Positions 5,182 to 15,224 of a DNA stretch of 24,081 nt are shown here, in pieces. The DNA is from a virus. Below the pieces are notes generated by a model. It was given only the letters and a program-made list of their open reading frames with translations, was not told where the DNA came from and searched no databases. Positions within the stretch are counted from its first letter, which is position 1, and each line of letters opens with the position of its first letter. The stretch spans positions 1-24,081 of the IMG/VR virus record IMGVR_UViG_3300027754_003212; one strand, 5' to 3'. The translations under genes were made by a program, and so were the position numbers.

Positions 5182-5391
5182 TTATTTGCCAGCCCAGCCG
5201 CCGCCAGACTTGTAGTGCTTGCGGGAGACGGGGGCCTCACGGTACTCGGGTTCCTTCTTGATGCTCTTCTCCATGCCTTCCATGACGGGGGACTCACAGC
5301 ACTCGGCGTCAGTCGAGTTCTGAATCTGCATCTTGGCGTTACGGGCGATGTCGTTACGCATCTTGTCCATCTTGGCTCGGTTGAACTTCAT
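5182..5391 (-). CDS. Small basic protein, unknown function
   Basis: A 69-residue, lysine- and arginine-rich protein with a helical N-terminal half and a Gly/Trp/Lys C-terminus (GGGWAGK). It carries adjacent cysteines (ECCES). The ATG at 5391 overlaps the previous gene by 38 bases; in-frame ATGs at 5370 and 5361 are alternatives, and 5361 would give an 8-base overlap like the one elsewhere in this phage. Basic charge would suit nucleic acid or capsid contact, but no family is recognised. Confidence 0.65.
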   Translation of the reverse strand: MKFNRAKMDKMRNDIARNAKMQIQNSTDAECCESPVMEGMEKSIKKEPEYREAPVSRKHYKSGGGWAGK

Positions 5392-6365: not shown

Positions 6366-6926
6366 ATGGATAACGAACGACTAGACACGAACCCGTCATC
6401 AAACCACAACGCCAAGAGGGTTACCAAGGACCGCAGGGAGAAGGTCGAGAAACTACTCAGGGAGGGTACGCCCGTCCTTGAGGTCGCCAAGGAGGTCAAG
6501 ATGTCGCCGAACAATGTCACGGCCATCAAGAAGGACATGCCAGAGTCCACAGGGCTCGTCGATGAGTTCAAAGCGGTCACCGTCCGAAACCTCAAAGCCT
6601 TCGTCCAACAGGCCAGCCAGAAACTGGTCAACGAATTGGACAACCTGCACGTCTCCCAGATACCCATCGCCATGGGCATCGCCATTGACAAGATTCAGAC
6701 CCTCCAAGACCAGCCTCAGGCGGTGGTCGAACACCGATTCAACATCTCGCATGAAGCCCTCTCCAATTTGCTCCGAAGTAGGGCTGTCGGTGCAAGGCTG
6801 TCCCAAGAAGGGGTCATTGAGGCTGACTTGGTGGTAGAGAAGCCTAAGGATACCCAGCAGTTCCTTGATTGGGCAAAAGACCCCCGTTCTTTTTTGGAGA
6901 AAAAAGGGGTGGTTGATAATCCGTAA
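6366..6926 (+). CDS. Small terminase subunit-like HTH protein
   Basis: A 186-residue protein. Residues about 20-55 form a resolvase-type helix-turn-helix (KVEKLLREGTPVLEVAKEVK then MSPNNVTAIKKD). A long helical oligomerisation region with a central IPIAMGIAIDKIQTLQ segment follows, and then a tail with a conserved-looking FLDWAKDPRSFLEKKG. This order matches many phage small terminases, which bind the packaging site and regulate TerL. ATG at 6366 is chosen over an in-frame GTG at 6321 because the latter overlaps the divergent rusA start. Being on the strand opposite to terL is unusual. It could instead be another HTH regulator. Confidence 0.6.
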   Translation: MDNERLDTNPSSNHNAKRVTKDRREKVEKLLREGTPVLEVAKEVKMSPNNVTAIKKDMPESTGLVDEFKAVTVRNLKAFVQQASQKLVNELDNLHVSQIPIAMGIAIDKIQTLQDQPQAVVEHRFNISHEALSNLLRSRAVGARLSQEGVIEADLVVEKPKDTQQFLDWAKDPRSFLEKKGVVDNP

Positions 6927-7230
6927 CACAAAGTACGACCTACTCGTCGATGACCCCCCCCGCCCCCTTCTGCATGCTGGGTACAGGGGTCAGGTATGCA
7001 CGTATACCCATGCATTTCGCACAACGGGCGTTATGTCTAGTCGATAGTTAGACTGAAAGCAGGTCATATCAGGTCACGATACGATAGGGGGCTTGACACG
7101 GGTGTGCTTTGTTATGGACTTACCATGGGTCGTGCGTCGGGTCAGATACACCTAACCTAGTTCACCCTGACCAGATGACCTTGACCGTATCAAATGGCCT
7201 CTCAAGTCAACCTAGGCCATGCAATCCACT
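6927..7230. other. Gene-free gap with C-tract and inverted repeat
   Basis: No convincing reading frame fills these 304 bases between two convergent genes. It holds a cytosine tract (eight Cs, G, five Cs at 6954-6967), a large inverted repeat at 6971-7014, short direct repeats (CAGGTCAT / CAGGTCAC near 7050-7075) and two AACCTAG words. No U-tract follows the hairpin, so a canonical intrinsic terminator is not supported. Convergent transcription must end here somehow. Confidence 0.5.
6971..7014. repeat. Imperfect inverted repeat (10 bp stem with 3-nt bulge)
   Basis: TGCAT (6971-6975) plus GGGTA (6979-6983) pair with the continuous TACCCATGCA (7005-7014); GCT bulges out. A competing small hairpin, GGTAT/ATACC (6993-6997 and 7004-7008), lies inside. 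It follows the end of the small-terminase-like gene by about 45 bases and could be a terminator-like or protein-binding structure. Confidence 0.6.
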
Positions 7231-8352: not shown

Positions 8353-8721
8353 ATGAAGGGCATTCAGTGTGACCTAGGCAACATGGTTATGCTAGAGCCT
8401 TACCAATGGTTAGACTATGCATGCGTAGGTGTTGCTGAGGATTACGCCATGGGTGCTTCAAGCGTGTACCGATGCGTATATGACCTCAACTTGTTGGAGC
8501 ATGCCTATGCACTCATGTATGCGTATGAGGAATTCGGATACACCAGTATCGACAAACTGGTTATCAATGCTACGCCTGAGCAATTCGACATGGCCCAAGA
8601 GTGGGTATCCTACAATACACTCAGGGCTAGTCCCCATATGGGGCAGTCTGCACCCCTATTTATACGCTCTCATGACCCAAAAGACTGGCAAACTAGCGAT
8701 AAATGGGCCCAAGGCTGGTAA
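8353..8721 (+). CDS. Unknown protein divergent from the endolysin
   Basis: A 122-residue protein, rich in Y, M and acidic residues, with a helical middle (LNLLEHAYALMYAYEEFG) and no membrane segment strong enough to call. ATG at 8353 follows GCAC, and ATGs at 8383 and 8389 are alternatives. The frame reads further upstream but there overlaps the endolysin signal sequence on the other strand. It is alone on its strand between gaps, so the evidence is open frame length and composition only. No family recognised. Confidence 0.5.
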   Translation: MKGIQCDLGNMVMLEPYQWLDYACVGVAEDYAMGASSVYRCVYDLNLLEHAYALMYAYEEFGYTSIDKLVINATPEQFDMAQEWVSYNTLRASPHMGQSAPLFIRSHDPKDWQTSDKWAQGW

Positions 8722-8773
8722 CTGGATTTCATTGATATACATGCACTTACGTAAATAGGTGCAGATTCTTTCT

Positions 8774-8831
8774 ACTATGTGTTGACGTACGACTACATAG
8801 TTACAGTGTCATTGGAGTAGTCACTGACTAC
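8774..8831. promoter_or_regulatory. Operator-like inverted and direct repeats before tRNA-Pro
   Basis: ACTATGT (8774-8780) is the inverted repeat of ACATAGT (8795-8801), and GTAGTC (8817-8822) of GACTAC (8826-8831). The word GACTACAT occurs at 8791 and 8826. A TTGACG at 8782-8787 could be a -35 element but no good -10 stands at 16-18 bases. Position at the head of the long plus-strand operon suggests a promoter-operator region for host or phage regulators such as the HTH and RHH proteins encoded downstream. Confidence 0.4.
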
Positions 8832-8851
8832 ATCGTTCTTTCGTCATCTAT

Positions 8852-8926
8852 CAGCCAGTAGCATAATGGTATTGCACCTGCTTTGGGAGCAGGGGGTTAC
8901 AGGTTCAAGTCCTGTCTGGCTGACCA
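8852..8926 (+). tRNA. tRNA-Pro (anticodon TGG), CCA encoded
   Basis: A full cloverleaf is visible: acceptor CAGCCAG/CTGGCTG, a three-pair D stem around AATGGTA, anticodon arm CCTGC-TTTGGGA-GCAGG with TGG at the anticodon position, variable GGGTT, and T arm ACAGG-TTCAAGT-CCTGT. The discriminator A is followed by a genomic CCA at 8924-8926. It heads the plus-strand transcript and directly precedes the structured non-coding region. Confidence 0.93.
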
Positions 8927-8932
8927 TCTTAT

Positions 8933-9225
8933 GGGCAGAAGAACCATAGGTTCCCCGAATTGAAGGGGACGCAAGGTATCGCATCACGACCTCGATACGC
9001 CTCTCTGCCCTGAATTAGGAACCACACTGACGGTAGGACAGTACCTCACACATAAGCCTTGGTACGCTTGTCCTCTGGTCTTACAGGTTCCACCCTTTCG
9101 TCTCTCTACGGGGCTAGGCTCGACTCCTAGCATGCGTGAAGAGCGGAATGTGGGTTCCCCGACGTGCTTTGGTCGCACCACGGGACGCAAGTCGGTTAAC
9201 AAAACCGAGCCTCAATCACTTTCAC
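8933..9225 (+). ncRNA. Candidate structured RNA with a duplicated domain
   Basis: This stretch between tRNA-Pro and the first small gene has no convincing plus-strand reading frame but dense helices. Domain A (8933-9010): outer stem GGGCAGA/TCTGCCC, a GGTTCCCCGA box at 8949, a CCCC/GGGG hairpin, ACGCAAG, hairpin GTATCG/CGATAC, then GCC. Domain B (9136-9225): outer stem GTGAAG/CTTTCAC, the same GGTTCCCCGA box at 9153, GGGACGCAAG at 9182, hairpin TCGGTT/AACCGA, then GCC. Loop and box sequences are kept while stem sequences differ. Between them are a three-part helix (GGAACC 9018/GGTTCC 9086; AGGACA 9035/TGTCCT 9069; GTACC 9041/GGTAC 9061) and a T-arm-like hairpin (GCTAGG 9113/CCTAGC 9126). Function unknown; no Rfam family was recognised by eye. 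Confidence 0.6.
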
Positions 9226-9227
9226 CC

Positions 9228-9253
9228 GCCGCAAGGCACAAACAACACAACAC
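9228..9253 (+). promoter_or_regulatory. Hairpin plus A/C-rich translation leader
   Basis: A GCC-GCAA-GGC tetraloop hairpin (9228-9237) is followed by a G-free stretch ending in AACACAACAC-ATG. No Shine-Dalgarno sequence is present. The layout closely matches the leader at 15198-15224. Confidence 0.55.
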
Positions 9254-9352
9254 ATGAACAAACAGCAAATCGGCACCCTCTGGGTCGTCGCCCTCATCAT
9301 CGACACGGCTATTCTCGTAGCCCTCTGCGTCATTGTCGGCCTCGTCTACTAA
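9254..9352 (+). CDS. 32-residue single-pass membrane microprotein
   Basis: ATG at 9254 to TAA at 9350-9352. After a short polar head (MNKQQIG) the rest is one hydrophobic helix ending in GLVY. The start follows the A/C-rich leader used by the other plus-strand genes, and a UUCG-type hairpin and another gene follow at once, which supports its reality. Function unknown; a small inner-membrane effector would be a guess. Confidence 0.6.
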   Translation: MNKQQIGTLWVVALIIDTAILVALCVIVGLVY

Positions 9353-9357
9353 GTGCC

Positions 9358-9386
9358 AGCCCTTCGGGGCTCCAATTTCCACACAC
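9358..9386 (+). promoter_or_regulatory. UUCG hairpin plus A/C-rich translation leader
   Basis: AGCCC-TTCG-GGGCT (9358-9371) is a perfect five-pair hairpin with an ultra-stable UUCG loop. It is followed by CCAATTTCCACACAC and ATG. The sequence after the hairpin resembles the leader at 13851-13867 (CCAATTTTCTACACAC). Confidence 0.65.
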
Positions 9387-9584
9387 ATGAGCAAATACAA
9401 GTACATCAAAGCATCGGCCATTAAGGCCATGGTCAAAGCCCACAATGGCAAGCGGGTATCCACCAACTTCCTCTACGTCCTCGAAGGATTCATTGAGAAG
9501 AAGGTCAAGCAAGCCGCAGACCTCCACAACGGTAATGCTAAAACAATTTCAGATTACGTTGCTGGCTACGTCGGCATCAAATAA
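9387..9584 (+). CDS. Bacterial-type histone-fold DNA-binding protein (predicted)
   Basis: A 65-residue protein with the histone-fold layout of bacterial single-domain histones: short helix 1 (ASAIKAMVKAHN), loop 1 with GKRVS, a central helix (NFLYVLEGFIEKKVKQAAD), loop 2 with NAKTI, and a final short helix (SDYVAGYV). The spacing from RVS to KTI (26 residues) is that of bacterial histones rather than the longer archaeal type. The K-R-V-S and K-T-I elements match positions that contact DNA and pair loops in known histones. It would bind DNA as a dimer, perhaps protecting or compacting phage DNA or shaping the replication origin. ATG at 9387 follows the ACACAC leader. A profile search is needed to confirm; seen by pattern only. 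Confidence 0.65.
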   Translation: MSKYKYIKASAIKAMVKAHNGKRVSTNFLYVLEGFIEKKVKQAADLHNGNAKTISDYVAGYVGIK

Positions 9585-15192: not shown

Positions 15193-15197
15193 ATTTC

Positions 15198-15224
15198 GCC
15201 GAAAGGCACAAACAAAACACACAC
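15198..15224 (+). promoter_or_regulatory. GAAA hairpin plus A/C-rich leader
   Basis: GCC-GAAA-GGC (15198-15207) is followed by ACAAACAAAACACACAC-ATG. It matches the 9228-9253 leader in hairpin, loop type (GNRA) and the shared GGCACAAACAA sequence. Confidence 0.6.

Follow-up and report, generated by a model that had tools for sequence, protein, structure and literature searches.

The window, by which we mean the whole 24,081-nucleotide stretch of DNA that was analyzed, represents a 24-kb piece of the genome of a tailed, uncultured phage and encodes terminase, RusA, Erf, an exonuclease VIII-like protein, and replication functions; the left arm is read from the minus strand, the early genes from the plus strand. 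The gap between a plus-strand gene ending at 8721 and the open reading frame (ORF) at 9254-9352 is taken up by a conserved leader, a tRNA-Pro gene, and the stretch 8933-9225 (Table 1). Across the phage group, the leader follows the pattern GATTTCRTTG..ATCA..ACTTACG, then TTGACG..GACTAC. A consensus promoter scan of 8724-8800 was negative, and its promoter role is thus a putative one. Positions 8724-8795 form a conserved block with TTGACG and an inverted repeat (CGTTG..CAACG in relatives), and this block is likely the control region of the early operon. Further downstream, positions 9387-9584 encode a 65-aa protein that is kept in relatives (SAIKAMVKAHNGKRVS..HNGNAKTI), is by eye reminiscent of a histone-like fold, and has no Pfam or PHROG match. 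No isolated relatives of the phage were found, the best TerL match being at 33% (Phage C75C1). The IstB-like protein retrieved no relative as a query against 84,980 prokaryote genomes, and one strict pattern gave no host tRNA match.

Table 1. Features of the window and recurrent units of related cassettes (positions preceded by an L number are on contigs of relatives)
Feature	Position	Strand	Evidence
Conserved leader 5' of the cassette, putative operator/promoter	8724-8800	+	Alignment of 15 phages
tRNA-Pro (TGG), first cassette unit	8852-8926	+	ARAGORN; Rfam RF00005, 68.2 bits
Extra outer stem GGGCAGA/TCTGCCC around A1	8933-9010	+	Sequence, fold; window-specific, absent in relatives
Module A, copy 1 (A1)	8944-9006	+	Model R1, 39.9 bits, E 1.4e-8 (copy used in building R1); covariation; descriptor alignment
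Module B, irregular hairpin	9018-9091	+	Model R2, 87.9 bits, E 3.3e-20 (sequence used in building R2)
Small GCTAGG/CCTAGC hairpin in the interval from B to A2	9113-9131	+	Sequence, fold
Module A, copy 2 (A2)	9148-9216	+	Model R1, 62.2 bits, E 5.9e-15 (copy used in building R1); descriptor alignment
Own leader of the ORF: hairpin GCC-GCAA-GGC, then CACAACACAACAC	9228-9253	+	Comparison with relatives
32-aa predicted membrane-peptide ORF (tm; MNKQQIGTLWVVALIIDTAILVALCVIVGLVY), conserved gene 3' of the cassette	9254-9352	+	Protein comparison with relatives
CCA-tailed tRNA-like RNAs	L012 ~7020-7105, L016 1378-1456, L019 ~6920-7000, L020 ~6650-6722, L022 ~6820-6895		
Module C	L011 6840-6915, L014 6225-6285, L016 1455-1530, L020 6725-6800, L022 6895-6975		
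Module D	L014 6145-6205, L015, L018, L026, L030 3505-3560, L038		

An earlier note had described 8933-9225 as one structured, internally duplicated non-coding RNA, and every element that it named was found in place. These are the outer stems GGGCAGA (8933-8939)/TCTGCCC (9004-9010) and GTGAAG (9136-9141)/CTTTCAC (9219-9225), the boxes GGTTCCCCGA (8949-8958 and 9153-9162) and GGGACGCAAG (8966-8975 and 9182-9191), the inner hairpins GTATCG (8976-8981)/CGATAC (8993-8998) and TCGGTT (9192-9197)/AACCGA (9203-9208), a GCC directly 3' of each inner hairpin (8999 and 9209), a long helix GGAACC (9018-9023)/GGTTCC (9086-9091), and a T-arm-like hairpin GCTAGG (9113-9118)/CCTAGC (9126-9131). Exact occurrences of both 10-mer boxes within the window are confined to these two sites each, and the folding energy of the stretch is modest (z -2.5) and lends weak support.

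The stretch consists of three discrete modules of ~65-75 nt in a row, A1, B, and A2. Its two domains do share the same ordered elements, but they are two copies of a dispersed module A: A2 shares 82% identity with the L019:7205 copy of a relative and only 56% with A1, and a single duplicated RNA was therefore rejected. The outer stems pair in the window but are no part of the conserved family, being absent from the other copies, most of which run from an AU-rich linker directly into the first helix (P1) with no outer stem. Similarly, the long helix and the T-arm-like hairpin are both present but do not serve to join two domains, the long helix being a separate family (module B); at the site in L019 that corresponds to the hairpin, pairing is not kept.

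Relatives were collected by means of the two boxes in order and then with the IstB-like, 65-aa, and TerL proteins as bait, and copies of module A were found with a structural descriptor and a covariance model, R1. We identified 20 distinct copies on 15 contigs of one phage group, with 1-2 copies per contig and always on the sense strand of the early operon. Two further A-specific patterns, searched in 2.9 million viral contigs, matched only contigs of this phage group, so the module looks restricted to it. Two matches of the first pattern search were excluded from the count, namely L006, which looks like a chance hit within apparently coding sequence, and L003, with only 20.6 bits against R1 and an unrelated setting. 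Sub-threshold R1 matches (11-14 bits) in L110, L078, and a distant part of the L021 contig were treated as noise.

When module A was aligned with MAFFT without reference to structure, 90.8% of its cells were paired vs 72.3% in shuffles, its covariation score was reached by none of 500 shuffles, and 11 of 14 pairs had double changes. When partners were slid by 1-3 columns, the score dropped about five- to fourteen-fold and pairing was at most 50%; covariation was assessed with these shuffles and slid controls, not with R-scape. Compensated examples include GGGGU/GCCCC, UGUAGGU/GCCUACA, UGUGGGU/GCCCACA, and CAGGU/GCCUG in P1 and UCGG/CCGA, CCAC/GUGG, CCAG/CUGG, and UCAU/AUGA in P3. The covariation proposed from the window is thus genuine, with homologs that keep pairing while the helix sequences change. 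No conserved reading frame runs through the region, where the copies have different stops and their length differences are not multiples of three, and the idea of structured non-coding RNA adjoining a phage tRNA is borne out. Judged on this comparative evidence, module A is a new RNA family with two copies in the window.

The predicted fold of module A, with strong covariation, is a compact three-way junction of ~60-73 nt per copy, in the order P1..GGU, P2, CGYAAG, P3, GCC..P1'. P1 abuts P2 and P3 abuts P1', and the six bases of CGYAAG between P2 and P3 are the sole junction nucleotides. A1 comprises P1 AGGU (8948-8951)/GCCU (8999-9002), P2 UCCCC (8952-8956)/GGGGA (8965-8969), the joining strand CGCAAG (8970-8975), and P3 (8976-8981/8993-8998), the corresponding parts of A2 being GGGU (9152-9155)/GCCU (9209-9212), UCCC (9156-9159)/GGGA (9182-9185) plus an inner stem, CGCAAG (9186-9191), and 9192-9197/9203-9208. 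GGU and CGYAAG are present in 20/20 copies, both having belonged to the search descriptor, and model R1 yielded no additional copies without them. GCC is present in 19/20, the lone exception being ACC, which changes the U-G wobble to U-A. The loops show no conservation, and when copies are folded thermodynamically together with their flanks, alternative pairings compete with P1 in many of them. The closing pair of P2 is associated with the Y of the joining strand (U-A with C in 8/10, C-G with U in 10/10; Fisher p 0.0007), an association that may represent a base triple or, alternatively, shared ancestry.

Modules A and B had no match in Rfam, even at E<=10, and the earlier note's impression of an unrecognized RNA held: tRNA was the sole match above threshold in 8800-9400 of the window, as were tRNAs in the relatives' cassettes. 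A tRNA or tmRNA identity of A and B was rejected, neither being called by ARAGORN or RF00005/RF00023. We found no earlier description of the modules in the literature, with small coverage of subscription papers. The joining strand of module A resembles that of the c-di-GMP-I (RF01051) and glutamine riboswitches, which we take to carry a GGACGCAA(A/G) or ACGGAAG-like strand near a multi-helix junction. Both were rejected, since neither RF01051 nor the glutamine riboswitch models (glnA RNA / Downstream-peptide) had a match at E<=10 in 8800-9400 of the window and the cassettes of four relatives (L014, L017, L016, and L030). The remainder of either consensus was not recognized in module A, in line with the earlier remark that, apart from ACGCAAG, the c-di-GMP-I consensus is absent. 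A CRISPR-repeat mimic (type I-E-like GTTCCCC..GGGGA hairpin) was rejected because the sequence of P2 is free while its pairing is kept (TCCC/GGGA, CTTG/CAAG, CACTC/GAGTG); CRISPR-DR35 scored only 16.7 bits (E 2.4), and this on the opposite strand. Known self-cleaving families were also rejected, with no Rfam ribozyme matching the window or the relatives' cassettes. A compact three-way junction with ~12 conserved core nucleotides, sited between units needing separation, could suggest that the cassette transcript is processed by a catalytic RNA, self-cleaving or otherwise; this is very improbable for module A given the lack of any Rfam ribozyme match and the tRNAs and modules that share the same arrangement with no adjoining A.

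Module B has helices at 9018-9023/9086-9091 (P1), 9029-9031/9078-9080, 9036-9039/9070-9073, and 9041-9045/9061-9065. It is represented by 8 distinct sequences with R2 matches of 87-102 bits, and double changes were counted at 11 of 18 pairs in the model-fitted alignment and at 9 of 18 in a free alignment. On this sequence comparison, it is a second new RNA family, unrelated to A, lying between A1 and A2.

The contents and order of units differ among 26 distinct cassettes 5' of the membrane-peptide ORF. Between two conserved flanks, the upstream leader and this ORF (29-32 aa across related cassettes), the units that are swapped include tRNAs of varied specificity, CCA-tailed tRNA-like RNAs, A, B, and at least 3 further recurrent structured units (C, D, and E). 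Module A occurs singly, in tandem a few nt apart (L017), followed by C (L057), or followed by B (window). The window and L016 have flanking proteins (pcsA, exo, and erf) that are 80-91% identical; the cassette of L016 holds tRNA-Pro, a tRNA-like module, and C, and that of the window tRNA-Pro, A, B, and A. Linkers between units are short, for example ATTT or ACTTT, and those from tRNA to tRNA (CCA-ATTT) are similar. An automatic test of the flanks of module A found the linker pattern in 9 of 20 5' flanks (background 12%) and 10 of 20 3' flanks (background 21%), which is only moderately strong. Modularity and the structure predicted from covariation are demonstrated by these comparisons.

Among the other units, the tRNA-like RNAs have a CCA tail, an acceptor and a T arm, and an abnormal middle with CGACACA, and are not called by ARAGORN or RF00005; the one in L016 gave sub-threshold matches to RAGATH-21 (21 bits, E 0.25) and tmRNA (16.4 bits, E 1e-4). 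Module C (CTTGGC..GCCTAAACGCC, with a hairpin after it) is an apparent RNA family in the same cassettes. Module D (GGGCCTCT..AGAGGTAAGAAG..CCTATCACCC) adjoins tRNA-Arg and may be a second three-way junction, with UAAGAAG as its joining strand. Module E (L047 ~5228-5295 and the L060 cassette) has three helices, of which the outer stems covary (GCAGG/CCTGC, ACTGGG/CCCAGT), and its GTAGTAG and TTTGCAA-like elements are shared.

Unrelated folds interchangeable at one site, AU-rich linkers between units, and placement just 5' of short ORFs would all suit a mechanical function, in which modules are robust folds that remain at the 5' (or 3') ends created by an endonuclease and shield polycistronic mRNA or tRNA precursors from exonucleases, any compact fold being sufficient. 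We consider this improbable, as stability alone would not require an invariant CGYAAG and U-G wobble over 20 divergent copies, and folding energies are ordinary in most of them (z above -2 in 15/20).

Sequence related to the ORF's own leader precedes another gene of the window (15197-15224), and the leaders before several genes, in the window and in relatives, have a hairpin GCC(N)-GNRA or UAAC loop-(N)GGC followed by a CACACACATG-like sequence. No Shine-Dalgarno sequences are evident in these phages. The tm leader is of one type in the window, where A is present, and in L054, where it is not (both share CCCGCCGCAAGGCACAA), and the hist leader TTTCC..CACACATG is kept in L014, L018, and L030 with A and in the window without it. 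Because the type of the ORF leader does not depend on the presence of A, module A looks like an insert, not a part of the leader.

A cis-acting role is nonetheless nearly as credible as one in trans, because 17/20 copies lie directly 5' of an ATG, always on the sense strand. Module A may be a 5'-leader element, an aptamer or a site bound by an RNA-binding protein of phage or host, that would control translation or transcript fate of the next small ORF, with tandem copies acting cooperatively. Binding pockets usually show themselves in this way, by helices that vary around a junction that is conserved; these 17 copies have the riboswitch-type feature of a candidate aptamer-like core 5' of an ORF, and the ORFs concerned are several (tm, hist, and others), as in a regulon. 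Against such a role, no expression platform was seen: there was no terminator-like site near A2 or the ORF, no Shine-Dalgarno sequence to mask, no special leader pairing, and no pairing preference of module A for its own leader. Further, the same ORF is preceded in relatives by B, C, another module, a tRNA, or nothing, and the remaining three copies of A are not beside an ORF. The manA and wcaG leader RNAs of cyanophages, mostly from marine sequences, are reported to lie before metabolic and stress genes (PMC2864571); they are, like module A, structured phage RNAs 5' of ORFs, and module A has no match.

Our tentative preference, held with slightly less than even confidence, is that module A, a new family in a swapped cassette, is cut out as an autonomous small RNA whose junction binds a partner in trans. 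The cassette would be made as one early transcript, and each module, like the adjoining tRNAs, would be excised at the short linkers, AUUU or ACUUU. Function would reside in the invariant junction (GGU/GCC with the U-G wobble, and CGYAAG), whose surface would bind a protein or some other partner while the variable helices serve as its scaffold. Excision and action in trans are suggested by the tRNA-like layout, the swapping of modules, and the invariant junction. Against them stand the lack of a CCA end and of a known processing signal in module A, the 17/20 copies before a start codon, the partial linker pattern, and the competing P1 pairings.

Fast turnover of modules beside tRNAs suggests that the excised RNAs would act against host defenses or in host takeover rather than in housekeeping. 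An anti-defense role is perhaps plausible because phages are known to use their tRNA regions against host defenses, phage tRNAs there opposing tRNA-cutting systems (PMC11555353); both cases concern small RNAs of a tRNA-rich phage region, but theirs are true tRNAs and A is not. A broader version, rather unlikely in our estimate, would make the cassette a fast-evolving "RNA toolkit" in which at least 5 unrelated families of structured, tRNA-sized RNAs, together with tRNAs and the CCA-tailed tRNA-like RNAs, all from one early transcript, serve as trans decoys or inhibitors of RNA-targeting host defenses, module A being one three-way-junction decoy among several.

The nearest known RNAs in kind are GOLLD and ROOL, single large phage or prophage RNAs that often lie beside tRNA genes and form multimeric cages, many GOLLD being >800 nt (PMC12286853). 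The earlier comparison with them was apt as to kind, structured phage non-coding RNAs adjoining tRNA genes, but not as to size and architecture, the modules here being separate, 60-75 nt long, of other folds, and able to occur singly; the GOLLD and ROOL Rfam models had no match in the window. T4 "species 1 and 2" (RNA C/D) are small stable RNAs of the tRNA cluster whose function is not known. They are likewise co-encoded with phage tRNAs but are one pair in one phage group, whereas here families are shuffled; the likeness is one of description.

To our knowledge, structured phage RNAs in the vicinity of tRNA genes are few, and the function of GOLLD and ROOL is still not settled. This locus offers a defined minimal family with 20 natural variants, a nearly invariant 12-nt core, and a working covariance model, and such RNAs are seen here as interchangeable tRNA-sized units between conserved flanks, which makes the purpose of the extra RNAs in phage tRNA arrays directly testable.
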